20,161 nucleotides of DNA from a virus, in the IMG/VR virus record IMGVR_UViG_3300042874_000613, positions 1 through 20,161 of that record; one strand, 5' to 3'. Of the stretch, positions 607 to 16,017 are shown piece after piece. The position numbers and the translations under genes were made by a program. The notes under the pieces were generated by a model. It was not told where the DNA came from. It was given only the letters and a program-made list of their open reading frames with translations, and ran no database searches. Every line of letters starts with the position of its first letter. Within the stretch, counting starts at the first letter, position 1.

Positions 607-2253
607 CTATACGATTAAATCACCAACCAAAACCCATACATTAGAACCTCGATGATATGCTGAGGCGCCGGCGTATTGTCCTAGTAGTCGTTTTGCATTA
701 TTCTTACTTACAATAGATGTGCTTGCAGCAAAGATTATAGTTCCGGTTCCAACGTTCACAAAGTCAACTCGCATGCCAACTGGCATCGAATTTGGCAGCG
801 TGATCGTAATGGAATTGGTGCATTCTACGATTACATTTTCGTGGGATGCGCTAATTAAAGTTGATATTCCAAGTGAAACAACGGGGTTTACGGGAGCGGT
901 CATTACCGTCCTCCCGTTAACCACTATGCCCGTCCCCGAGGCGACACCGGCACCGGATGAAATGCAAAATTTACCTGTTTCACATGTGTGTTCGTGCGTG
1001 AAATCGCCTGAAATATAGGGCGGTAGCATTTGGACATCAAAATATGAATACTGATGCACGGTAACGCGGCATGAGGCGCTACCGGCGATAAGTTTGGCCT
1101 GAACAAAAAAAACTTCGTTGCCATCAGAAATTATACGCAGCACTACCGCAGAATAATCTCCGCTCTCACTTCTAACGATTATGTCTTGGCTGTGGTTAAC
1201 AATCACTCGCGCAAGAACGTTTACCACTGTGTTACCTCCCGTTCCGGTTATGTAGAGGTCAATAGCACCCGCCAGTAAATCAGCGCCAACATGACAAAGA
1301 GTTACATAATTGGTATCAAGTAAAACGCTTGCCGAATATTTTCCACTAATGGCGGCATCGTAGGCCTGTTTCACCGCAGCGCTTGTTGCAAGTGTGGTGG
1401 TAGCAGTTGAGTTGATTGCATCACTTTTCGCTAAGTTGAAGCCTGTATTTTTTGTTATAGCAGGCTCTTTGGTATTTGCCACGGACAGGGCTGCTGCCGC
1501 ATCCGTGATTCCTTGCGACCCTCTATCGTAAGCCAATTTTGCAGCCGCACTAGTTGCAAGTGTAGTGGTAGCGGTTGAGTTGATTGCATCACTCTTATCA
1601 AGGTTGAATCCCGTATTTTTCGTTATCGCAGGCTCTTTGGTATTTGCCGCGGCCAGGGCTGCTGCCGCATCCGTGATTCCTTGCGATCCTCTATCGTAAG
1701 CCAATTTTGCAGCCGCGCTTGTGGCAAGTGTGGTGGTGGCGGTTGAGTTGATTGCATCACTTTTAGCTAAGTTGAAGCCGGACATTTTGGTTCCAATGGC
1801 AGGCTCTTTGGCATTCCATGTGTTAATCTGAGCATCAGAGACCATGCGATTATTGGTGTCCTGAAATGCATCCCGAAAGGTTCTTCCACCAATTGAGTTA
1901 ATCGTTATGTAATCGCCAACTGGAAGATTCGTACTCAAAACCGCCGAAAAGTCACGCTCAATTTCTTTTATTCCTCCTGATTGATAAAGTCTTGTTTTGG
2001 ACACCACCTCCTGAAGTTGGAGATATACAGGAAATGAAACAATACCAGTGGCTCCAGCGAATCGGGCTATTTTTCCTGAAATCACGCAAATACCTGGCGC
2101 AATTTCTTGGCCTACCACCTCGCAACCTTTCAGTATGCAATTCCCATAAGGACCATAAAATGACTCTTGAGCCTCAATAAGCTCATTTTGTATTGCTATG
2201 AAATCATCTCCATACCAATAACGTATCCCTGTTAATTGTCTTTGTTCTTTCAT
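607..2253 (-). CDS. tail fibre protein with three Phage_fiber_2-like repeats
   Basis: This 548-residue protein lies downstream of the baseplate genes, the usual place for the receptor-binding fibre. Residues 1-149 form a distinct N-terminal part, probably the baseplate attachment region. Residues 150 to about 305 carry three near-identical units of 56-57 residues built on SDAINSTATTTLATSAA.K.AYD, the hallmark of the phage tail fibre repeat. The C-terminal 240 residues are Gly/Thr/Val-rich and end in a beta-rich section (ITLPNSMPVGMRVDFVNVG) like many fibre tips, ending close to the BACON gene start. It starts at ATG 2253, four bases after the upstream gene. I see no diversity-generating template or reverse transcriptase nearby. 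Host specificity probably resides in the C-terminal part. Confidence 0.85.
   Translation of the reverse strand: MKEQRQLTGIRYWYGDDFIAIQNELIEAQESFYGPYGNCILKGCEVVGQEIAPGICVISGKIARFAGATGIVSFPVYLQLQEVVSKTRLYQSGGIKEIERDFSAVLSTNLPVGDYITINSIGGRTFRDAFQDTNNRMVSDAQINTWNAKEPAIGTKMSGFNLAKSDAINSTATTTLATSAAAKLAYDRGSQGITDAAAALAAANTKEPAITKNTGFNLDKSDAINSTATTTLATSAAAKLAYDRGSQGITDAAAALSVANTKEPAITKNTGFNLAKSDAINSTATTTLATSAAVKQAYDAAISGKYSASVLLDTNYVTLCHVGADLLAGAIDLYITGTGGNTVVNVLARVIVNHSQDIIVRSESGDYSAVVLRIISDGNEVFFVQAKLIAGSASCRVTVHQYSYFDVQMLPPYISGDFTHEHTCETGKFCISSGAGVASGTGIVVNGRTVMTAPVNPVVSLGISTLISASHENVIVECTNSITITLPNSMPVGMRVDFVNVGTGTIIFAASTSIVSKNNAKRLLGQYAGASAYHRGSNVWVLVGDLIV
1357..1806 (-). repeat. three tandem 168-171 bp repeats in the fibre gene
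   Basis: Two nearly identical DNA copies lie 168 bp apart (GGTATTTGCC at 1471 and 1639 mark the same point), with a partial third copy. They encode the fibre's 56-57-residue units. Similarity at DNA level points to recent duplication or gene conversion, and the copy number could change by recombination. Confidence 0.85.
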
Positions 2254-2257
2254 TTCA

Positions 2258-2731
2258 TCAATTTGTTACAATATCAAATGACCTGCCTGCTAGCTTATAC
2301 TTATACAATTCTGCCGAAATCAATGCAATGTTTAATTCGAGTGGTGCATACACTCTGAATGACACATCTACTGCTTGTTGGACCTCACCATTTAGAGCAA
2401 TGTACTGCCCTGATGCTTCAATTGCTAATGACACTGGAACCCCCTCATAACCTTCGCTCGACAATGAAAAGGCAATAGATTGTTCCTCGTAATGTGATAT
2501 ATAAATTCGACGTCGAATAGGATCGAATAGGTTGTTCAAATGCTCCTGAAGCGCAAATGTTTGTCCGCTTATATTTACATCGTAAAATTGCTTAGTGCGC
2601 CAATTACTGAATTCATTCCACAGCTCAGCCAAAGGATGAAATACAGCGTCTACAAACGACATAAATGCATCCTTGCGAATGCCCTGAATCAACCATTGCT
2701 TGATGTAGTTTTTAACGTCGAAATTAACCAT
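2258..2731 (-). CDS. putative baseplate/tail protein in the gpI position
   Basis: A 157-residue protein without a clear motif. It lies between baseplate J and the fibre, where tail protein I sits in P2- and Mu-like phages, linking fibre to baseplate. The first half is helical and aromatic-rich (WRTKQFYDVNI, LNNLFDPIRRRIYI); the second half is beta-like. Its ATG at 2731 lies inside the end of the J gene (8-base overlap), suggesting coupled translation. The functional call is positional only; I do not recognise the sequence. Confidence 0.5.
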   Translation of the reverse strand: MVNFDVKNYIKQWLIQGIRKDAFMSFVDAVFHPLAELWNEFSNWRTKQFYDVNISGQTFALQEHLNNLFDPIRRRIYISHYEEQSIAFSLSSEGYEGVPVSLAIEASGQYIALNGEVQQAVDVSFRVYAPLELNIALISAELYKYKLAGRSFDIVTN

Positions 2732-3494
2732 CGATACTCAGATTATAAACATTCGTTACACCCCAATTAAAATAACCGGCCACAATTTCATAATTCCGAC
2801 TGATTGTGGTGGTGTTCTCGCCTTGGATCCCTTCAAGCAACGTGATGTCTACATCAAGAATACCCGTCACACCTCGTAAATAATCAATAAAATCATTCTT
2901 CACAAACATCGAATCTTCCTTGTTTGTTTTATAGGCAAAAAGGGCAGTGCTTAAGTAGGTCTCCACAGCACTCATTGCGTATATCGGATTGTAGTATATT
3001 GTTGCCTCCACATGTATGATATCAGGCAGTAGCGAAACCACTTCCAAATCCGTACCGGCAACCATAATTTTCCGCACATAGTTAGTCAACTGCAACAGTT
3101 CTTCGCTCGAAAATGGAACCAATTCTTGATCCGCCAGTTTTGCAACTTTTATAGTCACTTTATTGCCCGATTCTGATGCGGTGGCAAAGGCAACCAATCT
3201 CTTATTCACATCTACCACAGGGTAACTAATCGTTCCATCTGCATTGAATACAACATCATCACCCAACTGAAATTCCTTGGTGCGATCAATGTACCAGCTC
3301 AGAGATCCGATTCTTTTTTTAGCAATTTTATCTTCAAGTTCGGCTTTGTACGCATCCATCAATTTCTCAAACACGTAAATGGCCGATACCACACCATCCA
3401 CAAGCAGGTTCCATAAGGCGAAATTGCTTTCGCTCAAATCCAAACTAAGATTCTGTAGTATCGAATCTTTTATTTCATACTTTTCTCGTGCCAT
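2724..3494 (-). CDS. baseplate J-like protein
   Basis: This 256-residue protein matches the general form of the baseplate J/gp47 family: a helical N-terminal region with RIGSLSWYIDRTKEFQLGD, a middle beta region (DVNKRLVAFATASE), then a domain with IIHVEATIYYNP and FIDYLRGVTGILDVDITLLEG near the C-terminus, which is typical of J proteins. It is short for the family (often 300 or more). It should form the outer wedge of the contractile-tail baseplate. It starts at ATG 3494, directly after the LysM-type gene stop at 3496. Confidence 0.75.
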   Translation of the reverse strand: MAREKYEIKDSILQNLSLDLSESNFALWNLLVDGVVSAIYVFEKLMDAYKAELEDKIAKKRIGSLSWYIDRTKEFQLGDDVVFNADGTISYPVVDVNKRLVAFATASESGNKVTIKVAKLADQELVPFSSEELLQLTNYVRKIMVAGTDLEVVSLLPDIIHVEATIYYNPIYAMSAVETYLSTALFAYKTNKEDSMFVKNDFIDYLRGVTGILDVDITLLEGIQGENTTTISRNYEIVAGYFNWGVTNVYNLSIDG

Positions 3495-3495
3495 T

Positions 3496-3726
3496 TTACT
3501 CGCTTGCTACTATTATTTGATTATCCTTGTAATATTGCACCAATCTCTTATTCACCACATACGCTTCATTGACCACTAACACTAAGCCTGGTTGGATTGC
3601 TGTGCCTATGTCAAGTTGATTGTCAATACATAATTCCACCACGGCTTCTGCGCTTCCATAGTATTGCATTGCAATATCAATAAGATTTTGACCTGGCAAC
3701 ACCGTATGACTATAAATCTTCGACAT
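3496..3726 (-). CDS. LysM-type tail protein X (gpX-like)
   Basis: A 76-residue protein with a LysM-like core: SHTVLPGQNLIDIAMQYYGS, then a helix and LCIDNQLDIGTAIQPGLVLVV. Small LysM proteins next to gpD, V and W genes are the phage tail protein X family, thought to sit in the hub or anchor the central spike. Its ATG (3726) overlaps the end of the gp25-like gene by 17 bases. Confidence 0.75.
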   Translation of the reverse strand: MSKIYSHTVLPGQNLIDIAMQYYGSAEAVVELCIDNQLDIGTAIQPGLVLVVNEAYVVNKRLVQYYKDNQIIVASE

Positions 3727-4000
3727 CTATATAGGTTTTACCGTTAATTTCATCGAACCCTTTAAGCTCTTTTTTATCGAGCTTTAATTGCTTTTTAAAC
3801 TCCGCTTTAAATTCATCACTCACCCCCGTTTCATCATCCAAAAATCGTGGGAGATCCATGCCTGCATATCCATTTTCGCGCAACATACCTGGTGAACTAA
3901 TCAAAAGTAAACGCACTTCTTGTTGCGTGCTATCGCCTGTTTTGAAATCACCATTTTCGATCCATAAATCACCATCCGCTGTCAACAGAATATCTATCAT
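3710..4000 (-). CDS. gp25/gpW-like baseplate wedge protein
   Basis: A 96-residue protein with the start-of-domain pattern of gp25-like wedge proteins: DILLTADGDLWIENGDF, then EVRLLLISSPGMLRENG, where an early loss of E..R or of the G.L pattern would argue against the family. It lies directly after the spike gene with an ATGA overlap at 3997-4000 and before the LysM gene, the usual W position. The protein joins sheath and baseplate in contractile tails. The family call is by pattern and context. Confidence 0.65.
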   Translation of the reverse strand: MIDILLTADGDLWIENGDFKTGDSTQQEVRLLLISSPGMLRENGYAGMDLPRFLDDETGVSDEFKAEFKKQLKLDKKELKGFDEINGKTYIDVEDL

Positions 4001-4536
4001 TGTAGTATTGCATTATTTTCGATGTTCGAAAAATCACCTGTTAATTTGCCTGCTAATGCAGCCCCTAAAGCCGTCTGAAATGCCGATGGCGAGCCATTGC
4101 CTGGCTCAGGGATAGGCGAGCCTGTGCACACAGTCAGTAGAGCCGATAAGATCTGATTGTTCTTGTCCAATTGTGCTTTAAGTTCTTGAGCCTTCACCAT
4201 TCCACCTAATTCGCCATCATTAAACACAAATTCGGTGGCACGCAGCACCACTCGATCAATTTCGCTATAACTGCATACAAAACCATCCGTCTCGCTCCCC
4301 TCTATAAACGAAACCATCACCCACGATCCCGCTTTAGGAATGATGTAGCTATGAGTCTCGTTTTCATCCGCAATCACAGCATTTAGACGCACTTCGTCGT
4401 AATCAAGTCCATCAATTGTCACCGTGCAAGTCAGTGTGCTTTCGTCTACCGAAACCACCTTACCTGGAACATTCACAACCATCTTACCACTTAAGCCCTT
4501 TAGTAGCTTCAATATTTCTTCCGCTTTTTTGCTCAT
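3997..4536 (-). CDS. baseplate spike/assembly protein V-like
   Basis: A 179-residue protein. After a helical start, residues 18-95 form a beta-rich OB-like domain (GKVVSVDESTLTCTVTIDG, then IIPKAGSWVMVSFIEGSETDGFVCSYSEID), the fold used by gpV/gp45 spike hubs. A helical stretch (VKAQELKAQLDKNNQILSAL) and a Gly/Pro/Ser-rich tail follow. It lies between the gpD-like hub and the gp25-like wedge, as in P2 and Mu (Mu gp45). It overlaps the hub gene by four bases. There is no visible HxH metal-binding tip. Confidence 0.7.
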   Translation of the reverse strand: MSKKAEEILKLLKGLSGKMVVNVPGKVVSVDESTLTCTVTIDGLDYDEVRLNAVIADENETHSYIIPKAGSWVMVSFIEGSETDGFVCSYSEIDRVVLRATEFVFNDGELGGMVKAQELKAQLDKNNQILSALLTVCTGSPIPEPGNGSPSAFQTALGAALAGKLTGDFSNIENNAILQ

Positions 4537-5492
4537 AATTTGATGCCTAATTCAACTGTACGTCGAAAACCATTGCGCCCAAAACTTGTGGTCACGCCTT
4601 CTACATAATACACTCCCGCACGCACAGGGTAATTCTTATCCCTAATCACTGCCGACATGCCCATAGTGGCATACGGCAATCCAAAACAGGTTAAAGTGCC
4701 ACGGTAACCGGTATATTTGTATTTGTTGATTTCTTCATTGGCCAATTCTTTCAATTTCTTCTCATTGGCGATATTCTGAAAATACAAAGTGCGCAAATCG
4801 CCATCATTATCGCCAGTTTCAACCTCAAGTTTCGTATTATCCTTCTGGAGCGAAATCGCCTTTATTTTAAATTTCAGTTCATCGGCATGCTTGTAGGTCA
4901 AATCATTGTCAACCACATTGCTTTGCAAGTCATAAATCACCTTACCTGTCATGTACAGGTAGGCCAATCCACAGTATACCTTTTGCTCATTATCAATAAA
5001 TATAGTCAATCCATAGTTGTCCTTAATTTTCTGAAGTGCCTGCACTCCTGTAATATTTTTCACTACAAACGAATTAAATTCAATCTGCGGTAAAGTGGCA
5101 TTCAAGGGTACATTGCCCGCTATATAGCGCACAACCTCGGCAAGTGTAGTGTTTTTAAAAATCTTATTGGCCAATGGTTTCCGGAGCAGATACATCGTAT
5201 CCTCACACTTGATTTCAGTTTTCCCCTTATCCGTGATTTCCTGCACATAGCCCACAAACTCTGTGCGTAGATCATTGTCGTAGCCCAATCTTACCACTAC
5301 CGAATCGCCCTTTTTTATTTCATTGGCGAGCGTGAGTTTCTTGCTATTTTCAAAAACAGCCGATAAGGGCAGCTCAATCGTACAAGTACTACTCAGCAGC
5401 CTGGTCGATTGCTCAATCTTAACATTCAACACCTCTTTGAACATTAATTTCTTACCTATCAATACCTCTACTCCGTTGATTAAGCTATACAT
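4533..5492 (-). CDS. gpD/gp44-like baseplate hub protein
   Basis: A 319-residue protein of the late control gpD/Mu gp44 type. It opens with a beta region (STRLLSSTCTIELPLSAVF, GDSVVVRLGYDN, TEFVGYVQEI), has a central FIDNEQKVYCG segment, and ends with an insertion-type domain (VRAGVYYVEGVTTSFGRNGF). It should form the trimeric hub under the tail tube that holds the spike. Its ATG at 5492 shares one base with the upstream stop (TAATG), indicating coupling. Confidence 0.7.
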   Translation of the reverse strand: MYSLINGVEVLIGKKLMFKEVLNVKIEQSTRLLSSTCTIELPLSAVFENSKKLTLANEIKKGDSVVVRLGYDNDLRTEFVGYVQEITDKGKTEIKCEDTMYLLRKPLANKIFKNTTLAEVVRYIAGNVPLNATLPQIEFNSFVVKNITGVQALQKIKDNYGLTIFIDNEQKVYCGLAYLYMTGKVIYDLQSNVVDNDLTYKHADELKFKIKAISLQKDNTKLEVETGDNDGDLRTLYFQNIANEKKLKELANEEINKYKYTGYRGTLTCFGLPYATMGMSAVIRDKNYPVRAGVYYVEGVTTSFGRNGFRRTVELGIKL

Positions 5493-6013
5493 TAGTCTAC
5501 CAGTATTACATCAAAATCTTTATCGCTTAACAGATTGATCTCGAATGGTTGTATATTTTGTTTACCTACCATATCGGGCAATCGAAGGCTTTCGATCACC
5601 ACCATGTTGATTTCAAAAACCTCGCATAGTTTGCTCTCAATTTTCAAACTTCGATTCAATCCAAATAATTCACGCAGCAGCTGCACATCTTGATAGGGAT
5701 AATCATCACTCTCATAATTGATCGCAAATCCTTTTATCGTCAACTTGTAATCGTCAATACTGATCAATTCCTTTACGGTTCCTACACCAACCACCTGAGT
5801 GCTCACAATTTTCTTTAAGGCATGCACACTCATTGCTGGGCTATTGGGCAACCAAATTCCGTTGATGCGGATGGGCATAAAATACGGCGTTCCATAGTAA
5901 TCTCGTTTAGGACTTACCAGTTCCCCCAACGATTCCATTGTCGGGAAGGGTTTGCCTACATAGCCAAATACTTTGGAATAAAGGTCGTTGATGTCGAATG
6001 CTATTTTTGCCAT
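5492..6013 (-). CDS. DUF6046-like tail protein
   Basis: A 173-residue protein with the pattern of an uncharacterised family seen beside tape measure genes in Bacteroidetes phages: an aromatic N-terminal part (GTPYFMPIRINGIWLPNSPA), then VGTVKELISIDDYKLTIKG and a C-terminal beta region. It lies between tape measure and hub, where LysM/DNA-circularisation (Mu gp43) or T4 gp53-type proteins sit in other phages, so it may connect tube or tape measure to the hub. The DUF number is from memory and the role is inferred from position. Confidence 0.5.
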   Translation of the reverse strand: MAKIAFDINDLYSKVFGYVGKPFPTMESLGELVSPKRDYYGTPYFMPIRINGIWLPNSPAMSVHALKKIVSTQVVGVGTVKELISIDDYKLTIKGFAINYESDDYPYQDVQLLRELFGLNRSLKIESKLCEVFEINMVVIESLRLPDMVGKQNIQPFEINLLSDKDFDVILVD

Positions 6014-7959
6014 CAGATTGAATTTGCGTTGTTTAAAATCCGTAAGAACACATCCTCTATTTTCGACTGTGCATCCTCCAAGCCTTCGTCCAAGCTACTG
6101 GTGTGGATGGTCAAATTCTCAAACATTTTACCCAGTGTGATGCTTATATTCTTAGTTTCTTTGCCACCGCCGGTCACCTGATCAATATTTTCACTTATAT
6201 TGTCATTGGTTGGTGTGGTTGGCTCCACTCCCGTCGGAGTAGTTCCGGCCAATACAGGCACTTCGAAGCCCAATTTCTTTTTAAGGCTATTGGTTACATC
6301 CGCCAGGCTCAGATCCGAATTCCACCGCATGTCTATACTTTCGAGCGATTCTATCGCCTTGGCTTTATGCTCAATCGCTTTCATCTGGGCATCAATCTGT
6401 GCTTGCTGCCTCGCTGCGGCATCTTTCTCTATTTTCGAGATGATACTTTGGGAGGTGCTTTCATCTGCCATGCCAGTAGCGGCCCTGAATTTATGCCAAC
6501 CTATTTGTATCGCATCCAAACCAGACAGAATCGTATTCGTAAATCCATACCAGGTCTCTTTGGTGCCTTCCACAAAGGCCAGAAAGCTATGCTTCATAAA
6601 ACCCACCGATCCTTCCCACAGACTTGCCCAGCCCTCTGTTTTCACCGCTGCCCAAGTAATTACTCCTATCAAGGCCACAATACCCGCTATCACAAGACCT
6701 ACTGGATTCGCATCCATGGCAACGTTTAACAGCCACATGGCGCCTTCCAAAATGGCTGTTTTTACGGCTGCCAAAGCCGACACAATAGCCATTGCATTGG
6801 TTGCAATGGTATAAGCAGTAATGGCCGCTATGATGGTCCATGCTGCAAAATTGCCCTCGCCAAGAGCAGTCGCAAAAGCGCCAATTTTTTCCACCAAGTA
6901 ACCCAACGGCACTTGCAGTGCGCCAAAGAGTGCGATCAACACATCCAAGGCTGGCGACAACACAGGGCCTATAACTTCAAACAGCTTCAAGGCCAATTCC
7001 TTCAAATTGTCCATCGCTGTGGATAATTTACCGCCAATGGTTTGTCCCATCTTTTCGGTCATTCCATGGTAAATGCCTCCCGCTCCGGTAGCAGATTTGA
7101 AAGCCGCTGTAACCATATCGGCACTAATAGCCCCTTTCTCCATCTGCTCTCTTAGCTTTTTGTAGGCTTCTACTTTGCTAATGCCCGATTCCTCACTTAG
7201 CTTTTTGGCCATTTCTTGCAACGGGTTAAAGCCTGCATTGATCATCTGCAACAAGTCCTGGCCTTGCAACTTGCCTGCACTCTGTACTTGAGAGAATGCC
7301 AAGGTCAAGCTCTGAAGCTTATTCGCATTACCGCCTGCCACATCGCCCAGCATTTTCATATTGGGCATGATTGCTTCCTGTGCCACACCAAACGAGAGCA
7401 TTAGGCGCCCAGCTTCTTGCAATTCGGCTTTGCCATAAGGCGTGGTTGAAGCATATTCACTCATTTCGCCAAGCATCTTTTTGGCCTTATCTGCACTTTG
7501 CAGCAACACTTCGTACGATGCCGCTGCTTGTTCGTTTTCGATCCCTATCTGAGTTATGCCCACCAAGGCTGCGCCACCAAGCACCAACGGATTGGCTGCC
7601 ATAGAGGCACCTGGTATTTGCTGCATGGCATTGGTGGCCATAGCCCTAAAGCCGCCACCATTCATCCCTTGCAGCTTGTGCAACTCCCGCTCGGTCTTTC
7701 GGATCTCGTTGTTATATGCTTTGAGCGAGTTCACCGCACTGGCTGGTATCCAATCGCGCTCCGCCTTCAGCAGGTCCAAGCGCTGTTGCAAACTGCCCAC
7801 GCTTTTGCCCATCTCTGTCATCACCTTACTCGACTCACTGGCTTGCGCCTGAAGTTTCGAAAATACTTTTTGAGCAGAATCAGAATTTACGCCAATCTTT
7901 TGCAATTTCCCTGATATCTGATCGTTTAAGGATAAAGTATATTCTAATAGCTTGCTCAT
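6013..7959 (-). CDS. tail tape measure protein
   Basis: A 648-residue protein. Residues 1-100 are coiled-coil rich, residues about 140-350 match the tape measure domain (AGRLMLSFGVAQEAIMPNMK, QGQDLLQMINAGFNPLQEMA), and residues 371-440 are strongly hydrophobic with several potential membrane segments, as usual for proteins ejected into the host envelope. The remainder is helical. By the usual rule of about 0.15 nm per residue the tail would be near 100 nm. It lies between the frameshifted chaperone and baseplate genes as expected. Its ATG at 7959 sits head to head with the ATG of a rightward ORF within the same CATG. Confidence 0.9.
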   Translation of the reverse strand: MSKLLEYTLSLNDQISGKLQKIGVNSDSAQKVFSKLQAQASESSKVMTEMGKSVGSLQQRLDLLKAERDWIPASAVNSLKAYNNEIRKTERELHKLQGMNGGGFRAMATNAMQQIPGASMAANPLVLGGAALVGITQIGIENEQAAASYEVLLQSADKAKKMLGEMSEYASTTPYGKAELQEAGRLMLSFGVAQEAIMPNMKMLGDVAGGNANKLQSLTLAFSQVQSAGKLQGQDLLQMINAGFNPLQEMAKKLSEESGISKVEAYKKLREQMEKGAISADMVTAAFKSATGAGGIYHGMTEKMGQTIGGKLSTAMDNLKELALKLFEVIGPVLSPALDVLIALFGALQVPLGYLVEKIGAFATALGEGNFAAWTIIAAITAYTIATNAMAIVSALAAVKTAILEGAMWLLNVAMDANPVGLVIAGIVALIGVITWAAVKTEGWASLWEGSVGFMKHSFLAFVEGTKETWYGFTNTILSGLDAIQIGWHKFRAATGMADESTSQSIISKIEKDAAARQQAQIDAQMKAIEHKAKAIESLESIDMRWNSDLSLADVTNSLKKKLGFEVPVLAGTTPTGVEPTTPTNDNISENIDQVTGGGKETKNISITLGKMFENLTIHTSSLDEGLEDAQSKIEDVFLRILNNANSI

Positions 7960-8179
7960 GAATCTAGTTATCGGTTATGCGCTCTTGGCAATGCTCTATT
8001 GGCTGCTCAAAAGCTTCTTGAATTTCCCTCGATACATTTCGGTGGTGATCATTGCCCCGCTCATGCCATTCATCACGGCTTATCGCATCCGTAACCAACG
8101 GCCAACATTGGCAGTGGCTTTGCTTGCCACCTACACCACCTTATACCTATCTTTTTTGTTAATTTTTGCTTTGTCGTAA
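7958..8179 (+). CDS. small membrane protein, antisense within the tail operon
   Basis: This 73-residue ORF reads against the tail operon, filling the gap between tape measure and chaperone. It is almost wholly hydrophobic: a segment from residue 2 to about 20 (LVIGYALLAMLYWLLKSFL), one around 28-42 (SVVIIAPLMPFITAY), a basic patch RIRNQR, and a third from about 51 to 72. This gives two or three membrane spans. No minus-strand ORF covers 7960-8158, so this frame best explains the stretch. I prefer ATG 7958 over TTG 7952. Its 3' end overlaps the chaperone extension by 21 bases. No clear promoter or ribosome site is seen and I recognise no family. It could be a phage-borne membrane gene (superinfection, lysis or unknown) or, less likely, a chance ORF. 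Confidence 0.55.
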   Translation: MNLVIGYALLAMLYWLLKSFLNFPRYISVVIIAPLMPFITAYRIRNQRPTLAVALLATYTTLYLSFLLIFALS

Positions 8180-8335
8180 TTCTTCACTTCGCACCCATCT
8201 CAGGTCGTTGAAGGCTACCGCCCAAGCTTCGTCATCCATGCTTTCAGGATGCTGTATATGCAAGTAATACCGCAGTTGTGCATCAATCTTACGGATATAG
8301 CCTGTTCGCTCTCCGATGGCAGTAGCCTCTATAGC
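8159..8335 (-). CDS. tail assembly chaperone extension, reached by -1 frameshift
   Basis: A 58-codon open frame follows the shorter chaperone ORF in the -1 frame, with normal protein character (ERTGYIRKIDAQLRYYLHIQ, DDEAWAVAFNDLRWV). It has no ATG, GTG or TTG before codon 33, so independent translation is unlikely. Joining it to the upstream ORF near AGAAAAG (8335-8341) gives a product of about 158 residues from 8634 to 8159. An AAGGAGG motif lies 9 bases before the AAAAG, an arrangement known from E. coli dnaX frameshifting. This is the expected place for a lambda G/GT-type pair, just before the tape measure. The exact slip site is inferred. Confidence 0.7.
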   Translation of the reverse strand, partial: AIEATAIGERTGYIRKIDAQLRYYLHIQHPESMDDEAWAVAFNDLRWVRSEELRQSKN

Positions 8336-8634
8336 TTTTCTATTTCGGCCTCCTTCAGTTCTATGATTTCGGCAAGCTTGCCACTTGCCGACAGAAACAA
8401 TTCATCATCGGTCTTGATGGCCTCTGAGCCTCCCAGGAAGGTGTTCTCTAGGATTATTTCATTAAACTTCAGCGGGTCTTTGGTGCCCACATTCGATGCA
8501 AACGAGAGGGTCTTTCGATCCGGGTTCTTCACATAACACACATGACCGTCTACTTTGATGGCAAATACCGATTTGTGAGCCTTTTTCCAGCGTTCAATTT
8601 GCTCAGGGCTGGCTTGTCCTATTAATTCTGTCAT
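8329..8634 (-). CDS. tail assembly chaperone, short form
   Basis: A 101-residue protein with VKNPDRKTLSFASNVG, KFNEIILENTFLGGSE and KTDDELFLSASGKLAEIIELKE, a pattern I recall from short chaperone-position proteins of Bacteroidetes phages. It lies between tube and tape measure genes, the place of lambda gpG-type chaperones that coat the tape measure while the tube is polymerised. The ORF ends at TAG 8329-8331, right after a candidate slippery site that would extend it into the -1 frame. It starts at ATG 8634, just after the tube gene stop. Confidence 0.75.
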   Translation of the reverse strand: MTELIGQASPEQIERWKKAHKSVFAIKVDGHVCYVKNPDRKTLSFASNVGTKDPLKFNEIILENTFLGGSEAIKTDDELFLSASGKLAEIIELKEAEIEKL

Positions 8635-8637
8635 AGT

Positions 8638-9060
8638 TTAGATGTTTTTTCTGATTTTTATGGCTATAAACGACAGGGCTATTTCGCCATATTTATCTCC
8701 CTGCTTCATTCCTTTCTCGTTGTCTTGAAACTCCATGTATTCTATGGCATCCGACGATATGGTGCCGCCATTCTCTGGCGCATAAGACACCACCATAGTC
8801 AGGTTGCGCAGATCAAAAATGTCTTTTCCCTTGCCGGCTGCCTTTTCCAAGGCCTGCACCTCGCTCTGTAGCAAGGTAAGCGTGCCTTCATATTTCTTAT
8901 TGCCACGTCCAATGCCGCGGGGTTCCGATCCAGAGGCATGAATCAATTCTTTTTCTTGCGACGACTTGTATTTTATCCCACGAGCACCGGTGAGCTTTCT
9001 TCCTTTCAGTTGAATTTCAATGTCGCTCCAGGCGTATTCTTCACTGTTAAAATCTGCCAT
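8638..9060 (-). CDS. tail tube protein
   Basis: A 140-residue protein directly downstream of the sheath gene, as tube follows sheath in contractile phages. It shows tube-type features: FNSEEYAWSDIEIQLKGRKL at the start, a GIKYKSSQEKE strand, a glycine-rich turn (GSEPRGIGRGNKKYEG), and a C-terminal beta strand (YGEIALSFIAIKIRK). It overlaps the sheath gene by one base. The function is inferred from size, position and pattern. Confidence 0.75.
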   Translation of the reverse strand: MADFNSEEYAWSDIEIQLKGRKLTGARGIKYKSSQEKELIHASGSEPRGIGRGNKKYEGTLTLLQSEVQALEKAAGKGKDIFDLRNLTMVVSYAPENGGTISSDAIEYMEFQDNEKGMKQGDKYGEIALSFIAIKIRKNI

Positions 9061-10256
9061 TATGCATTATTTAAAGGGTTTGTAAAGCCTATTTCTATTT
9101 CTATGGAGGAGGTGTAACCCACCGGAATTGCACTCACCGTTACTTTCAACTTATCGGTGCTTATTACATCTTGCTTTTCATCGATCAAGCAGCTTATTGC
9201 GCTCAATTCGCCATTGGCTACCATCTGCTCCTTCACCGCTTTTTCAATTTCTGTTTGCAAGCTTTTTACATAACTTGCAGGCAGGGTGCCATCAGGGTTG
9301 ATGTCTATATCTTCATCCACTTCATTTATAAAGGTCAGATAGGCAATCAACATCAATTTGTCCATCACCCGTCCGCGCGACAGGTACCTGTAATCATCCC
9401 CATCCGAGGTGGCAGTGTGGTCGCTGTTGAAGTAATAACCCGCCTTGCCCGCAAATTTCCGATAGATGATATAGCCCTTGTCATGGATCAAGTCCAAGGC
9501 ATTCTCAACGGTCTCTATAGGCTCGCCATGGGTCAAATAAGCCTCTGTAATTGCCAAGGAACCTGATTTTACCCTGCTTATTTTGCGCTGCACCGGATTG
9601 GCTGCCAATCTGCCCAGCACTATGCCGATGTTGGCATCTTCCAAGCCCGATCCTTGTCCGGTCAATACCACTGCTACTCTATTTTCACTGCGCTGTTTCA
9701 GATCGGCCAAGTCGCCGGCAATGCCTGTCCAGCCACGTCCAGCAACTAGCACACGCAACGGCCTCACATTTGCCGCATGCTGCGTAGCCAATTGTTGGGC
9801 ATTCACCACAGCTCCCCACACATCGGCATCTAAGCCATCCGTGATGGTTTGCACATAGCCCAAATCGGGCACACGGCTCACACCCAACAATCGGATCCGT
9901 CCTTGGGCAGCATCCAGCAATCTGGCGCCATTCTTACTCAGCGACACATCTACCATCGCTGTCATAAGCACCGTTTGCGCCATCAACATAATCCACAGTT
10001 CAGCGCCTGTGCCTGCTTCGCGGTAAAATTGCGACACTTGGTAGTACACATCCAACTGGTTCGCACTGTCGTAATCGGCATCTATGCCCAAGGCTTCCAA
10101 ATCGGCCAAGCCGAATAGTTGCACCGGTTCATCCAATTCAAGCTGTCCTGCAACTGCAACTCCCGACAACAGCATGCCGGCAACACCATCGCCCACAACA
10201 ACCGCACTGCCAATGCCGCCATTCAATACTACTATATTTACTCCTGGTAATCCCAT
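9060..10256 (-). CDS. contractile tail sheath protein (DUF2586-like)
   Basis: A 398-residue protein. It opens with GLPGVNIVVLNGG, has a middle domain (RIRLLGVSRVPD, RPLRVLVAGRGW, VAVVLTGQ) resembling sheath/DUF2586 proteins, and ends with a conserved sheath-type C-terminal domain (GYIIYRKFAGKAGYYFNSDH, RVMDKLMLIAYLTFINEVDE). It forms the outer contractile tube, so the virion is myovirus-like. It is somewhat shorter than Mu gpL (about 495). It is followed by the tube gene with a one-base overlap and shares one base with the upstream gene's stop. Confidence 0.85.
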   Translation of the reverse strand: MGLPGVNIVVLNGGIGSAVVVGDGVAGMLLSGVAVAGQLELDEPVQLFGLADLEALGIDADYDSANQLDVYYQVSQFYREAGTGAELWIMLMAQTVLMTAMVDVSLSKNGARLLDAAQGRIRLLGVSRVPDLGYVQTITDGLDADVWGAVVNAQQLATQHAANVRPLRVLVAGRGWTGIAGDLADLKQRSENRVAVVLTGQGSGLEDANIGIVLGRLAANPVQRKISRVKSGSLAITEAYLTHGEPIETVENALDLIHDKGYIIYRKFAGKAGYYFNSDHTATSDGDDYRYLSRGRVMDKLMLIAYLTFINEVDEDIDINPDGTLPASYVKSLQTEIEKAVKEQMVANGELSAISCLIDEKQDVISTDKLKVTVSAIPVGYTSSIEIEIGFTNPLNNA

Positions 10257-10600
10257 TATACGTTTTTGTTTTCGTTATAAAATTGTTTGTAAACACAGGA
10301 TTTGCACAGCGTGTCATGATTCTCGCGTAGCAATTTCATATCGCCTATCAGGTCATCAATGCGCATTTCCAGCTTCTTGATTTGTTCCGATTGTTTAAGG
10401 ATCAGTTCCTCCTGCTTGCTGATTTTCTCACTTTGCTCTTCGCTCAATTCGCGCCAAATGGTAATCACTTTCTGTGCATTCCCTAGTTCCAAGGAGAGTG
10501 TTTCAGCATTACTCTTTTTTCGTGTCAAAAAATAAGTCAAAACACTCCCTGCCCCGGTGCCTGCTATGGCTATCAAGGCCAGCATAATTGGTTCGCTCAT
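10256..10600 (-). CDS. membrane-anchored coiled-coil protein with C-terminal CxxC
   Basis: A 114-residue protein with one N-terminal membrane segment (IMLALIAIAGTGAGSVLTYFL, residues 5-25), a basic stop (TRKK), then about 70 residues of charged coiled coil (SEEQSEKISKQEELILKQSE), ending in CKSC (near residues 98-101) and a basic tail. The basic residues after the membrane segment suggest a cytoplasmic C-terminus, which argues against an i-spanin. Similar small proteins occur in Bacteroidetes phages as I recall, without a known function. It lies between the acidic repeat protein and sheath with one-base overlaps on both sides. Confidence 0.65.
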   Translation of the reverse strand: MSEPIMLALIAIAGTGAGSVLTYFLTRKKSNAETLSLELGNAQKVITIWRELSEEQSEKISKQEELILKQSEQIKKLEMRIDDLIGDMKLLRENHDTLCKSCVYKQFYNENKNV

Positions 10601-11097
10601 TACTCAATTATTGATCGTGGTACCTCTAAAATCACCAAAGCCTTGTCGCGTTTCATCCGACCGTCTTTGCGTGCATGATTTTCTGCCGATGAGCGGTCTT
10701 TCTTCAAAAACACCTGTCCATCACTTGTCAGCAACACCATCTTTTCGGTGGCATTACTTTCAAAAACCGACTTCACCTGGTCCAGATGTTTCCGCATAAG
10801 TTGGATAGTTTCCATGCTTGGTTCTTCCACCTCTGGTTGATCCAGAGTGGTGTTTTCAGCTTCGTCACTTGTTTCTTCCACCTCTGGTTGATCCAGAGTG
10901 GCGCTTTCGGCTTCGTCACTTGATTCTTCCACCTCTGGTTGATCCAGAGTGGTGTTTTCAGCTTCGTCACTTGATTCTTCCACCTCTGGTTGATCTAGGA
11001 TGGCGCTTTCTATTTGGTCACTTGATTCGGCCACCACATCTACCGATATCGCCGGTGTTTTATTTTCAGTTTTCTTAAAGTTCGTTCCTTTTCCCAT
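10600..11097 (-). CDS. acidic repeat protein between capsid and sheath genes
   Basis: A 165-residue protein in two parts. Residues 25-92 are four tandem 17-residue acidic units (SSDEAENTTLDQPEVEE type), probably unstructured. Residues 95-165 form a conserved-looking domain (METIQLMRKHLDQVKSVF, VLLTSDGQVFLKKDRSSAE). It follows the major capsid gene, so it may be a head decoration, head-fibre or connector protein comparable in place to Mu gp35; I cannot show this from sequence. A terminator lies between it and the capsid gene, so expression should be lower. The start ATG 11097 is preceded by an A-rich stretch (GAAAGAAAAA). Confidence 0.65.
   Translation of the reverse strand: MGKGTNFKKTENKTPAISVDVVAESSDQIESAILDQPEVEESSDEAENTTLDQPEVEESSDEAESATLDQPEVEETSDEAENTTLDQPEVEEPSMETIQLMRKHLDQVKSVFESNATEKMVLLTSDGQVFLKKDRSSAENHARKDGRMKRDKALVILEVPRSIIE
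10822..11025 (-). repeat. four tandem 51-bp repeats
   Basis: TTCTTCCACCTCTGGTTGAT begins at 10822, 10873, 10924 and 10975, an exact 51-base period. The first three copies are nearly identical and the fourth (the N-terminal one in the protein) is more diverged. They encode the acidic 17-residue units, keep frame, and could expand or contract by slippage. Confidence 0.9.
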
Positions 11098-11130
11098 TTT
11101 TTCTTTCGTTTGTTCGTTTTTTTCTTAGAG

Positions 11131-11158
11131 AAAAACGCCACTTGACCATGCAAGTGGC
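11131..11158 (-). terminator. intrinsic terminator after the major capsid gene
   Basis: On the minus strand GCCACTTG pairs with CAAGTGGC around a six-base loop (11137-11158), followed by GTTTTT. It lies 22 bases after the capsid stop and before the acidic repeat gene. Since no promoter is obvious before that gene, it probably works as a partial terminator that lowers tail gene transcription relative to capsid. Confidence 0.8.
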
Positions 11159-11180
11159 ATTCTTCATCACTCACTTATAA

Positions 11181-12215
11181 CTACACAACACTGTCGTTTA
11201 CCAAGGCGCCAAAAGCTTCCAATGTTTTGGGCAAGGCTATAAATCGTTGATCAAATGATACTAAATTGCGCTTATTCAATGGATCTTTCTCCGCTTCTGA
11301 GTAACTCATCGATGCGGTACCTTTGGCTTTAAACATGCGCTTGGCATAGAAAGCAACTGAGGCATCTCTATCTGTTCCGGCAGCGGCTGCACCATAGGCC
11401 TTTTTCGCAAAAGCTGCATCGTATTTCGGATTATCCGCAAATTCATGGATCTCAAAACCATACAAGCGCACAATTTTGCCCGAACCAATATCCTGGTACT
11501 GTCCTTTAAAAGATTCGCTCACCAACAGCAGATCTTCCACATGCTGTGGACACAACACCAATATGCGATTATCGTCATTGGGAACCCTCAGATCGTCAAA
11601 CTTGCGTTTGAGTGCGATCAAATCGGCTATCACCATCCGTTTCTTACCCAATCCATTATCCCCTCCACTGGTTTTCACCACAGGGGTTTTGGTACTGTGA
11701 GTCTGGGGTGCAAAGGCATGTGCTGCTCGTTTAAAGGCCGATTCTATCAACGATTCCTTATGCAATTGCGTTGCTATCGAAATCTTCTGATAGCTGATTG
11801 CATGCAATTCGTCTTTGGTGATCGACGTGGGCACGGTCTCTAATTTGTCCAGTCCAATAGGGATATCCGGATCGCCCAACGATTGCGGAATTAGGGGATA
11901 GGTGGTATTATTAATCAATACCTCTGGTTTGGCGCCCACATCTATCAGGTGGATCACACTGTTGTTTACATACTGATCGTAAGATGGCACTTTGTCCAGG
12001 AAGGTGCCCTCAAACGTAAAGGCCTTCACTATCTCACCGGTCCACACTTCGGTATATACTCCTGCACGCACAATTCCGCTTGGCAGTGGAATCAACGATG
12101 CTCCTACCAGCACCGGTATGGTGATGCCTGGTGCAATGGCCGTTACTGTAGACACGAACAGGCCCGTCACAATTGAAATCAGCAGCGACAGCGCTACTAC
12201 TATTAATCTTGTCAT
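11181..12215 (-). CDS. major capsid protein
   Basis: A 344-residue protein lying just after the protease/scaffold gene, as Mu gpT does. Middle and C-terminal regions show capsid-type features seen in Bacteroidetes Mu-like phages: GVYTEVWTGEIVKAF, VIHLIDVGAKPEVLINNTTY, DKLETVPTSITKDELHAISY, LVLCPQHVEDLLL. The N-terminal 45 residues are unusually hydrophobic (LIVVALSLLISIVTGLFVST and ITIPVLVGASLIPLPSGI); they might be a delta region removed by the protease or a buried arm. I chose ATG 12215 over the upstream GTG 12221, because ATG is preceded by an A-rich leader typical of this phylum. An intrinsic terminator follows. Confidence 0.85.
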   Translation of the reverse strand: MTRLIVVALSLLISIVTGLFVSTVTAIAPGITIPVLVGASLIPLPSGIVRAGVYTEVWTGEIVKAFTFEGTFLDKVPSYDQYVNNSVIHLIDVGAKPEVLINNTTYPLIPQSLGDPDIPIGLDKLETVPTSITKDELHAISYQKISIATQLHKESLIESAFKRAAHAFAPQTHSTKTPVVKTSGGDNGLGKKRMVIADLIALKRKFDDLRVPNDDNRILVLCPQHVEDLLLVSESFKGQYQDIGSGKIVRLYGFEIHEFADNPKYDAAFAKKAYGAAAAGTDRDASVAFYAKRMFKAKGTASMSYSEAEKDPLNKRNLVSFDQRFIALPKTLEAFGALVNDSVV

Positions 12216-12242
12216 TGACACTTGTTTTTAGTTTTTGTTTTA

Positions 12243-12680
12243 TTAGTTTATTTTTGGCTCAAATCCATAATGGCTGGCATACATCTCTTTATAGGTTGCC
12301 GGATTGTCGGCTCGCAATTTGATTTTTTCGGCATCCGTGAGCGATTCCCAATTCTTCTTCACCCCAGATGCATCCGTATTTTTAACCAGAGCCAACAGGC
12401 TCGACAAGGTCACTGATTCAGGTGCTGCTGCTGGTTCAATTGCCGTTGCAGGCTTACCCAGATGATCAATAAAGCTAAGCGCCAAATTTTGATCAAGTTC
12501 GTACAACTTTAGCAAATCTGCCTTGTTGCCATCGGTCAATACACCGCGCGATGCAGCTAGCATCTCAAACACCGAAATAGGTGTACCTTCAGATTTGGTC
12601 ATCAAGCTCAAAATTTTTGCATTTATTTCTTCCTGTGTTGCTGTATCGGGCAATCCTAGCGAAAGTGCGATTTCTTTCAT
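12243..12680 (-). CDS. nested scaffold protein from internal in-frame start (Mu gpZ-like)
   Basis: In-frame ATG at 12680 (M161 of the protease ORF) begins MKEIALSLGLPDTATQEEIN, which reads like a natural N-terminus, and is preceded by a very A/T-rich stretch (TTAAAATAAAAACAGAC) that suits Bacteroidetes initiation. The product would be 145 residues, the whole scaffold part without protease. In Mu the scaffold Z is made this way from within gene I. Separate translation here is inferred. Confidence 0.6.
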   Translation of the reverse strand: MKEIALSLGLPDTATQEEINAKILSLMTKSEGTPISVFEMLAASRGVLTDGNKADLLKLYELDQNLALSFIDHLGKPATAIEPAAAPESVTLSSLLALVKNTDASGVKKNWESLTDAEKIKLRADNPATYKEMYASHYGFEPKIN

Positions 12681-13160
12681 GTCTGTTTTTATTTTAATTT
12701 TAGGTACTAATTTATTGATATCATCCACCGCAGATAGATTCACAACCACTCCCGAGGTGTCGTAAAGTTTCACAGCCGAGGCATTCGACGGCACGGTGGC
12801 CACTGCTATTTCCATCAGTTCACAGGCTAGCACCGTGGGGCGTTCCTGACCCTGCTTCAGATGTTCGGACATATCACTCCACGTAAGCGCTCTGAAGCCG
12901 ATAGAGAATCCACTCATATAGCCCTTTTCATACTTACCTTTGAGCTTACGACCCAATTCGTCGTCTTCATCAAACTCTACTTCGCCCACCAGATTTTGGC
13001 CTTCGATCCGCAAATCGGTAATCTTACCCACCGACATCTCATAGGTATTGTGCATGTAGGTGACCACCGGATTCTTTTCAAATCGAGCCAAATCGATCCC
13101 ACTGGTCAGTACCCAAAATCCGTAACTGTTTAATTCCTCTGTGTTAAATACTGCTTTCAT
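12243..13160 (-). CDS. prohead protease with C-terminal scaffold (Mu gpI-like)
   Basis: A 305-residue protein. Residues 1-135 are an HK97/Mu-type prohead serine protease: candidate catalytic H37 (VVTYMHNTY), S83 in GYMSGFSIGF, and the family segment ELMEIAVATVPSNASA (114-129). Residues 161-305 are a helical, Ala/Ser-rich scaffold-like region. It should mature the procapsid and direct capsid assembly. It is the first gene of the leftward structural operon, with a promoter about 35-65 bases upstream. An in-frame ATG at residue 161 probably gives a separate scaffold protein, as in Mu I/Z. Confidence 0.85.
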   Translation of the reverse strand: MKAVFNTEELNSYGFWVLTSGIDLARFEKNPVVTYMHNTYEMSVGKITDLRIEGQNLVGEVEFDEDDELGRKLKGKYEKGYMSGFSIGFRALTWSDMSEHLKQGQERPTVLACELMEIAVATVPSNASAVKLYDTSGVVVNLSAVDDINKLVPKIKIKTDMKEIALSLGLPDTATQEEINAKILSLMTKSEGTPISVFEMLAASRGVLTDGNKADLLKLYELDQNLALSFIDHLGKPATAIEPAAAPESVTLSSLLALVKNTDASGVKKNWESLTDAEKIKLRADNPATYKEMYASHYGFEPKIN

Positions 13161-13319: not shown

Positions 13320-13550
13320 ATGAACAACTTTATCAAGAGGCTTATGTATCAAGTCAGAATCCGACGGGCTATACGCAAAGCAAATACCCTGCGCCGCCAA
13401 ACCGGATACAAATACATCGTGCTCAATGTGGCTGGGAAGCCAAAGGTTTTCGCACGCTTCCAGCTCAAGAGACTTATTAAGTTAAACTTTTTCGCCAAGG
13501 GTGTCAACATCCGACAACTGGAAAAACATGCACTCTATATCACCGCATAA
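13320..13550 (+). CDS. small basic phage protein of unknown function
   Basis: A 76-residue, strongly basic protein, first of the rightward operon. Its N-terminal half is rich in Arg and Lys (IKRLMYQVRIRRAIRKANTL), followed by a small beta-like part (TGYKYIVLNVAGKPKVFARF) and a helix ending KHALYITA. I recall similar small proteins before the terminase genes of Bacteroidetes phages, without a known role; DNA or packaging-complex binding is possible from charge and place. Its last base is the first base of the small terminase ATG (TAATG). Confidence 0.65.
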   Translation: MNNFIKRLMYQVRIRRAIRKANTLRRQTGYKYIVLNVAGKPKVFARFQLKRLIKLNFFAKGVNIRQLEKHALYITA

Positions 13551-14038
13551 TGGCTAAAGACAACGAAAGACGTACAGCTCGAATACTATTCGTAGAGCAA
13601 GCGAAGACCGGAAAAGAAATTGCCGAACTGCTGGGTGTTTCCGAAAAATCAATCTCTAATTGGGTCACCAAATACGGATGGAAAAAAGCGCAAACACTAC
13701 ATGCAGCCAGCAAAGAAAACAGGCTCGACAATCTCATTCAAATCGTCGACGATTTGGCAGCAAATAGAATTGAACTTAACAATTCGCTCAAAAAATCGAA
13801 TGACATTCAAGAGCAAAAAACTATCCGCGCCCAAATTGCCGAAATCGACAATTCAATCACCCGGTGGACCAAACAGATCACCGCAGTCAACAAAGACGAA
13901 ACCATTACGCTCGGAACGTATCTCAGTGTGATGAAAAGTATCTTCAATTCACTGCAAAGATACAGCCCCGAGTTGTACCTGAAAACAATCGAATTTCAGG
14001 AGATACACATCAACGAACAAAGCACGCTACTCGACTGA
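13550..14038 (+). CDS. terminase small subunit-like HTH protein
   Basis: A 162-residue protein with an N-terminal helix-turn-helix (KTGKEIAELLGVSEKSISNW, about residues 20-39), followed by a helical region and a C-terminal tail. The HTH in front of a large terminase gene marks the small subunit, which recognises DNA for packaging. The gene ends TGATG so the large terminase starts on the same bases. Mu's counterpart is of the gp27/DUF1804 type; family assignment is by pattern. Confidence 0.8.
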   Translation: MAKDNERRTARILFVEQAKTGKEIAELLGVSEKSISNWVTKYGWKKAQTLHAASKENRLDNLIQIVDDLAANRIELNNSLKKSNDIQEQKTIRAQIAEIDNSITRWTKQITAVNKDETITLGTYLSVMKSIFNSLQRYSPELYLKTIEFQEIHINEQSTLLD

Positions 14039-15579
14039 TGAAAAGAATTAGCAAAGAGATCAGGGATCAATACCTTGCTCAATTAAAGTCCGTAAAAGAA
14101 GGCAAAACGGTCGACCTGTTCGAAACCCCAGACCAAAAATCGGCACGGATCGAATGGGCGCGCAAAGACTTTGCATTCTTTGTGCGGCAATACCTGTTTC
14201 ATTACGCAATCGACGATCAAACCCAGCGAATCATTGATTCGGCCCCTTTTCATGTATTTATTGCCAACAAAGTGCGCCGCGAAAAACGCATCAAGGCAAT
14301 CCTTCGATGGGGACGTGCACAAGCCAAATCAGTGGTGGCCGATGTGTTCATTCCGCTTTGGCTCTGGATCAACGACGATATCAAATACATGGTGCTCATT
14401 GGCAACAACGAGGACAAAGCCAAGATCCTATTGTCCGATCTTCAGGCCGAATTTGAGGCCAACAGTAGGTTGCAACACGACTTTGGTATGCAAAAACTCA
14501 AAGGATCCTGGGAAAAAGGCTACTTCGTCACCCGCAATGGCTTTGTATGTAAGGCCATTGGTGCGGGGCAAGATGCCAGAGGTTTGCGCCTAAAGAACCG
14601 CAGACCGGATTACATCGTGGCCGATGACCTCGAAGACAAAGACACACTCAAAAATCCTAAACGTCAAGACGAAATTGCCGAATGGCTCATACATGCCGTC
14701 ATCCCAACCATGGACGGGCACCGGGCACGTTTCCTTATGCCCAACAACCTCTTTGCACCCCGTATGATTCAAACTGTGCTCGAGCTGCTCATGCCTACCA
14801 TTTACATACATAGGGTAGACGCCTACGACCCTGCAACCTACCTGCCTGCATGGACTGCCAAATACACTCCCCAATACTGGCAAACAATCGAAACAGAGAT
14901 TGGCCGACTTGCAGCGCTGGCAGAATACTGCAACCATCCTCACATCGAAGGCAAAATATTCAAAAAGGAAATGATCAATTTCCTCAAAAAATACCCAAAG
15001 CTCAACCAATTCAAAATCATTGTGGGCCACTGGGACATAGCCTATGCCGGCACCAAAACCAGCGACTACAACGCCGTGCGCGTGTGGGCACTCATGGACA
15101 AATCTTTCTATTACATCCAATCATTCGTCCGACAAACCAAAATGGTTGAAGCCCTGGAATGGATGGTCTATTTCCAACAGCAATTGCCTCCGTCGGTGAC
15201 TATACACTGGCGATTCGAAGCCCAGTTCTGGAACGATGCCGTCAAAGATGCAATAGAGCTTGTCGAAGAAAAACACAACATCAAACTCAATCTGGTAAAG
15301 GTGGACACCCCGAGAGGCAAGAAATACGACCGCATGTCGGGCATGCTCCCTTATTACCAAAATGGACGAATAAATTATCCCGAAAAAATGCTGGGCGACA
15401 ACGACACCCAAACAGGACTCCAACAACTCTATGGAGTGGAGCCTGGATACCGCACCAAAGATGATGCACCCGACGCCGATCAGCAAGCCATTACCTTTTT
15501 GGAAAAACACATTCGACGTGGACACACACCCACGCGCACAGGTAAAATGAATAAAAACAACATCAGAAGAGCTAATTGA
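14038..15579 (+). CDS. terminase large subunit
   Basis: A 513-residue packaging ATPase/nuclease. The ATPase domain has a Walker A-like GRAQAKS (92-98), which differs from GxxxxGKS by Ala in place of the last Gly, and Walker B at YIVADDLED (192-200). The nuclease domain has HWDIAYAG (D333) with SDYNAVRVWAL (D343) and DAPDAD (477-480) as likely metal ligands. I chose ATG 14038, which overlaps the small subunit stop (TGATG); the frame is open 58 codons further up inside that gene but that part is a shadow. It resembles Mu gp28 and allied families. It pumps DNA into the head through the portal encoded two genes on. Confidence 0.9.
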   Translation: MKRISKEIRDQYLAQLKSVKEGKTVDLFETPDQKSARIEWARKDFAFFVRQYLFHYAIDDQTQRIIDSAPFHVFIANKVRREKRIKAILRWGRAQAKSVVADVFIPLWLWINDDIKYMVLIGNNEDKAKILLSDLQAEFEANSRLQHDFGMQKLKGSWEKGYFVTRNGFVCKAIGAGQDARGLRLKNRRPDYIVADDLEDKDTLKNPKRQDEIAEWLIHAVIPTMDGHRARFLMPNNLFAPRMIQTVLELLMPTIYIHRVDAYDPATYLPAWTAKYTPQYWQTIETEIGRLAALAEYCNHPHIEGKIFKKEMINFLKKYPKLNQFKIIVGHWDIAYAGTKTSDYNAVRVWALMDKSFYYIQSFVRQTKMVEALEWMVYFQQQLPPSVTIHWRFEAQFWNDAVKDAIELVEEKHNIKLNLVKVDTPRGKKYDRMSGMLPYYQNGRINYPEKMLGDNDTQTGLQQLYGVEPGYRTKDDAPDADQQAITFLEKHIRRGHTPTRTGKMNKNNIRRAN

Positions 15580-15580
15580 T

Positions 15581-16003: not shown

Positions 16004-16017
16004 AATCCACTCAAACC

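Follow-up and report, generated by a model that had tools for sequence, protein, structure and literature searches.

The tail assembly chaperone gene of the 20,161-base window analysed here, an IMG/VR virus record belonging to a Mu-type phage with a contractile tail, is very probably decoded by programmed -1 frameshifting, a tRNA-Lys slipping on A_AAG giving rise to two lambda-like chaperones, G and GT. Comparison of the window sequence with its relatives established that both frames are conserved as protein, that the shift is -1 and that the slip site is under selection at the nucleotide level. We further infer that the fusion is produced, its ratio to G, the exact tRNA step and the roles of G and GT summarized below.

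The mechanism would generate two products from a single start codon. Most ribosomes would end at the TAG codon (8331-8329) and release the 101-residue chaperone G. A minority, carrying tRNA-Lys on AAG (8337-8335), would slip back by one base onto AAA and continue in the -1 frame as far as 8159, giving a GT fusion in which the chaperone is followed by a two-helix T domain. If lambda is taken as a model, G would coat the tape measure and GT would recruit the tube subunits.

Gene order, relatives and the two reading frames

The Portal_Mu and Phage_Mu_F domains were both found in the window, where a single ORF of 844 aa holds the two of them, and the host of the phage appears to belong to the Bacteroidota. 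The terminase and portal genes (13550-18734, plus strand) are oriented opposite to the capsid and tail genes (607-13160, minus strand). An ORF located between the capsid and sheath genes (10600-11097, minus strand) carries a tandem acidic repeat, TLDQPEVEESSDEAE-like, in about four copies. The features relevant to the frameshift are collected in Table 1. The ORF of the tail tube also matches phrog_9206, 'major head protein', with an E-value of 5e-34. The order of tube, chaperone and tape measure speaks for the frameshift reading. The preliminary description had placed the extension at the position of lambda G/GT; its further statement that the extension immediately precedes the tape measure does not hold, as the two are separated by a gap of 199 nt containing an ORF on the opposite strand.

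Table 1. Coordinates of the chaperone gene, its candidate recoding signals and its neighbours in the window
Feature	Coordinates	Strand	Remarks
Tape measure protein	6013..7959	-	Downstream neighbour; PF20155, E 2.3e-20; phrog_9959, E 2.5e-37
-1 frame open stretch	8159..8401	-	'T' domain used after the slip, 8335-8162; stop 8161-8159
Region of the long covarying stem of the family	8231..8328	-	Weak and not significant in the window; family 5' arm adjoins the stop codon, 3' arm around 8266-8231
Tail assembly chaperone ORF, zero frame, giving the 101-residue 'G'	8329..8634	-	ATG 8634, TAG 8331-8329; phrog_19076, E 1.1e-35
Leu codon CTA, alone between slip site and stop	8332..8334	-	Forms with the stop the 6-nt spacer of the family
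Slip site A_GAA_AAG	8335..8341	-	Core tetramer A_AAG at 8338-8335
SD-like AAGGAGG	8349..8355	-	10 nt upstream of A_AAG
Tail tube protein	8638..9060	-	Upstream neighbour; phrog_4579 tail protein, E 5.5e-17
Tail sheath (contractile tail; DUF2586)	9060..10256	-	PF10758, E 7.8e-62; phrog_907 tail sheath

Relatives were collected by chaperone scans that returned 16 viral loci, 61 genome loci and 80 viral loci, the last set being partly overlapping. Relocation with TBLASTN gave 158 loci (window included), reduced to 127 distinct joints and then to 113 that are less than 90% alike. Slip sites were counted on 112 of these (L070 out), structure scans were run on 111 (L070 and L045 out) and the remaining analyses on 110 (L063 out too). 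Among the 50 of the 113 that could be placed taxonomically, 49 are Bacteroidota and one is a Chlorobiaceae bin. The chaperone matched only two records of the phage collection, both unannotated. The cultured Winogradskyella phage Peternella_1 was found by means of its tube protein: gp46 leads into A_AAA_AAG, CGT and TAG, and a -1 extension of 84 codons bears the T motif. Its T domain (L159, NC_062754.1, 26646-26896) is without annotation in RefSeq. Mushuvirus mushu (L160, BK063464.1; Oscillospiraceae host) displays a -1 extension of 71 codons, together with a hairpin of -44.8 kcal/mol and an A_AAT_TTG placed four codons ahead of the last sense codons of the chaperone. The annotation of this phage treats the T part as a hypothetical gene in its own right, beginning at a GTG, even though the -1 frame carries on from the chaperone. 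In a clade of the family (L071-L078; Flavobacteriaceae, Epilithonimonas) the chaperone ORF extends to approximately 175-183 codons, the slip site is always A_AAA_AAG, the T loop is longer and stems of the family type are weak.

An extension in the -1 frame without a usable start near the joint, overlapping the end of the chaperone as first reported, is indeed present at 8401-8159. The overlap amounts to 70 nt and the frame continues for 57 codons beyond the chaperone stop; its first ATG, GTG or TTG lies at least 68 nt past that stop (TTG at +68, ATG at +92), within the conserved domain. A -1 extension of at least 50 codons was found in 124 of the 127 distinct joints, window included. The corresponding +1 extension was found in only 7 of 127, so that a Mu-type -2 shift, with T in the +1/-2 frame, is not supported. 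The three exceptions to the long -1 extension are one locus whose contig ends (L063) and two with apparent indels elsewhere (L045 and L070); once they are removed, the extension is free of stops over at least 50 codons in 124/124. In L045 and L070 the chaperone genes are apparently disrupted by single-base indels distant from the slip site, or contain assembly errors, and their parts still match the family despite the disruption.

Differences were counted by codon position over 15 independent pairs. In the T region, read in the -1 frame, they amount to 111/64/248 at positions 1/2/3, a pattern like that of the chaperone in its own frame (98/54/293), which indicates that the second frame encodes a real protein. 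No relative was found in which G and T are fused in one frame. The preliminary description had pointed to conservation of both frames and of the slip site in homologues as a check, and to a second frame decayed or provided with its own start as an objection. The frame was found open, with protein-like substitutions and selected slip-site bases, it is not decayed, and an ATG, GTG or TTG within -40 to +15 of the stop occurs in only 10/110 relatives.

Probable slip site and flanking signals

The elements brought forward initially, AGAAAAG (8341-8335) and AAGGAGG (8355-8349, 9 nt ahead of AAAAG), are located as described, and the reservation that AGAAAAG falls short of an ideal heptamer was justified: what is conserved is the A_AAG tetramer. 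This is the sole in-frame Z_ZZN tetramer of the overlap in the window, where no canonical X_XXY_YYZ heptamer was found; canonical heptamers occur in some relatives. Going upstream, the joints consist, with few exceptions, of the zero-frame stop, one codon (mostly Leu), AAG (or AAC, AAT, AAA) and NNA. In passages of PMC5009743, A_AAG counts as a minimal -1 site and NNA_AAG is a natural, low-level form; a canonical heptamer is not required since Z_ZZN is the minimal site described there.

The slip tetramers of the 112 joints are distributed as AAAG 79, AAAC 12, AAAA 6, AAAT 5, TTTT 1 and other 9. The base preceding the slip codon occupies a zero-frame wobble position, and a ribosome that has slipped does not read it in the -1 frame; it is A in 103/112, where codon usage predicts 58.1 (z 9.0). 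Where the slip codon specifies Lys, AAG accounts for 79 of 85 cases against a background of 0.346; over the rest of these genes AAA occurs about twice as often. Covariation is also seen one position upstream of the NNA codon, the base there being A in 28/28 when the codon is AAA (6.9 expected) versus 7/84 otherwise, and G in 30/32 when it is GAA. Such covariation would preserve the pairing of the P-site tRNA at its first position. The wobble bases are thus conserved although needed by neither product and covary as slippage predicts, which identifies the site as the A_AAG tetramer.

The base before NNA is identical to the first base of the codon in 95/112 joints. The window is among the other 17, its heptamer A_GAA_AAG being rare in the family (2/112) and one in which the P-site tRNA would re-pair poorly. 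A_AAA_AAG is present in 21/112 members; the five AAT members continue with TTA or TTT, forming the canonical A_AAT_TTA or A_AAT_TTT, and the joint of L146 is the canonical T_TTT_TTG. The Z_ZZN tetramer is absent from the usual codon in 9/112. Neighbouring codons offer one instead in L061, L062, L067 and L155, and in L014 and four G_GAG_GAA rows the slip would require a G.U pair in the middle.

Two candidate stimulators are suggested by sequence throughout the family, a purine-rich SD-like element and a stem that begins 6 nt beyond the slip site; in the window the former is clear and the latter unconvincing. The SD-like element of the window has a duplex energy of -12.1 kcal/mol, compared with a mean of -5.5 kcal/mol for synonymous variants. 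Upstream GGAGG occurs in 31/112 joints versus 10.9 +- 2.7 under the synonymous null, an approximately threefold enrichment, and G is favoured at the wobble positions of codons -8, -7 and -5. The caution that Bacteroidetes ribosomes make weak use of Shine-Dalgarno pairing weighs less than was stated: the element is enriched family-wide, and passages of PMC8710568 report that Bacteroidia ribosomes occlude the anti-SD, yet the SD-dependent prfB frameshift is kept in 523/726 genomes. In the Weeksellaceae, which have an alternative anti-SD, no strong SD was found in L025, L040 and L078, a sample (n=3) too small to interpret.

Folding scans of the family peaked 15-30 nt past the slip site, with mean z-scores of -1.45 and -1.58 against -0.81 to +0.17 elsewhere. 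In individual members the stop codon is followed directly by a long hairpin, which begins 6 nt from the slip site and is closed some 90 nt further on. Arms from the same phage pair at -18.1, compared with -14.7 +- 0.3 once arms are exchanged between phages of the same GC bin (z -11.4), and six control geometries in the same test gave z-scores of -2.6 to +1.8. Pair counts, obtained on the 73 of 110 sequences that form one spacing class, gave a covariation of 0.203 versus 0.152 +- 0.010 and 53 doubly changed cells versus 29.8; alignments A4 and A5 comprised 80/110 sequences each. RNAalifold returned no consensus structure on the whole set, and the family stem was demonstrated by arm swapping and pair counts instead. 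The downstream fold of the window was not significant against shuffles (z -0.52 over 110 nt, -1.19 over 75 nt) and pairing of its own arms is weak (z -0.27); against the synonymous null the fold reached z -2.6. The stem of the window is weaker than that of the family, an exception in degree, and is not convincing. A hairpin upstream of the slip site, near 8390-8360 (GGCAAGCTTGCC), was set aside as a signal, the family having hardly any structure beyond expectation in upstream windows.

The strongest slip sites have the weakest stems, with means of -12.4 kcal/mol for A_AAA_AAR and -23.7 kcal/mol for GTA_AAY. On a tree used to look for a link of slip class with stem or SD strength, at least 31 changes of slip class and at least 7 of the canonical A_AAA_AAR state were counted. 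The trade-off between slip and stem is an association only, since among the supported branches a single independent pair was informative about it. We regard it as possible, though somewhat short of probable, that the chaperone ratio is set by the internal SD, A_AAG and the post-stop stem together, the SD being truly read by elongating Bacteroidota ribosomes. If so, slip strength, SD and stem would act as interchangeable dials.

Predicted proteins and an antisense gene

AlphaFold2 modelled G with a pLDDT of 95 and T, as two helices, with a pLDDT of 91.6. Among the four PDB entries listed after re-alignment to the G domain, its top structural neighbours are 3fgx (Z 8.4), YqbN 3klu (5.1) and the HK97 chaperone 2ob9 (4.8), at 8-16% identity and with Foldseek E-values of 0.04 to 2. 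A kinship of the predicted G fold with the HK97 tail assembly chaperone 2ob9 is suggestive only. Pfam, PHROGs and NCBIfam contained no convincing match to the T part of the window, and sequence searches of the PDB returned nothing usable. DUF7241 was considered for the extension and rejected: the match was weak (E 0.0063), below cut-off, and vanished when the shorter T part or its relatives were used.

An antisense gene encoding a very hydrophobic protein of 73 aa (7958-8179, plus strand) lies in the gap separating T from the tape measure, and the same place is occupied in relatives. Where this gap measures 150-450 nt (n=42), 37 members have an antisense ORF containing one or more membrane-like segments (two or more in 31), and 2 have such an ORF in the sense direction. 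The antisense gene is missing in about half of the family, the gap being at most 30 nt in 53/109. Several of the antisense proteins are mutually related (that of the window with those of L011, L013, L039, L115, L148 and L158) and have a P..PF..A motif in common. Differences in this gene by codon position amount to 93/55/133 over six pairs, the third position being highest. None of the seven antisense proteins searched had a PHROGs match below E 0.02. It is a fair guess that the gene is a superinfection-exclusion moron, since the superinfection-exclusion gene gp15 of HK97 is located at the same place.

Alternative explanations and known systems

The T part could conceivably be a separate protein, for which translation would be re-initiated past the chaperone stop, or coupled to that of the chaperone, at a weak or non-AUG start codon and in the absence of any frameshift. 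This is very unlikely. Some -1-frame ATG, GTG or TTG does precede the conserved RYY block in 66/110 relatives, and the separate GTG-initiated gene annotated in Mushuvirus mushu would be of this kind; however, none precedes RYY in 44/110, starts close to the stop are confined to the few relatives mentioned above, and re-initiation does not account for wobble bases that are conserved and covary, nor for the preference for the Lys codon AAG upstream of the stop.

A frame change resulting from transcriptional slippage, or from a sequencing or assembly indel, is less probable still. Long A runs such as A_AAA_AAA and A_AAA_AAG in some relatives would suit slipping polymerases, but the A run of the window is only 4 bases long and the joints are mostly GAAAAG, GTAAAG or GTAAAC; recurrence of the identical frame offset in 124/127 distinct joints rules out a sequencing or assembly error. 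That the extension might be a functionless accident of overlapping frames, as the lack of a convincing database match for the T part of the window could suggest, is barely credible in view of a frame kept free of stops in every intact joint and a confident T fold, and the protein-like substitution pattern already contradicts it. Programmed -1 frameshifting remains the preferred reading.

Tailed phages are known to use chaperone frameshifting. Unlike lambda G/GT, the family described here combines an SD-like element and a long covarying stem with a contractile tail; most of its members use an NNA_AAG hexanucleotide rather than G_GGA_AAG, and no sequence match to known chaperone families was found. 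Its slip site lies one codon before the stop; the mean for the group surveyed by Xu, Hendrix and Duda (2004) is 36 nt according to passages of PMC10885494.

The similarity to dnaX proposed in the preliminary description is partial. The E. coli dnaX signal includes a downstream stem and, some 10 nt ahead of the slip site, an SD-like element. This element recurs in the window and in the family, and the stem in the family, without reaching significance in the window. The slip site of the window, A_GAA_AAG, differs from A_AAA_AAG, which some relatives share with dnaX (passages of PMC5009743). The gene and the purpose differ as well, the shift extending the product in this family and truncating it in dnaX. 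IS1222 and Bacillus cytidine deaminase resemble the family in their NNA_AAG sites, at which only tRNA-Lys re-pairs well (same passages of PMC5009743), but the genes concerned encode a transposase and a cytidine deaminase and not a tail chaperone. Phage Mu, with which the window shares portal and F proteins of the Mu type, is reported in that source to use a -2 shift, unlike the -1 shift of the present family.

In the text consulted of open-licence PMC papers, including PMC8008677 and PMC10367356, no report of this frameshift in Bacteroidota phages was found. As the second half of the gene is devoid of a start codon, it is missed by gene callers. The SD-like element is apparently selected where host ribosomes hide their anti-SD, and the use of internal SD sequences by elongating Bacteroidota ribosomes is therefore directly testable. 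The kind of mechanism, similar to that of lambda G/GT, was already known, and the set of signals is the family's own. The family contributes natural slip sites from across a phylum, with more than 100 variants of one joint, where other phages had been the main source of knowledge.
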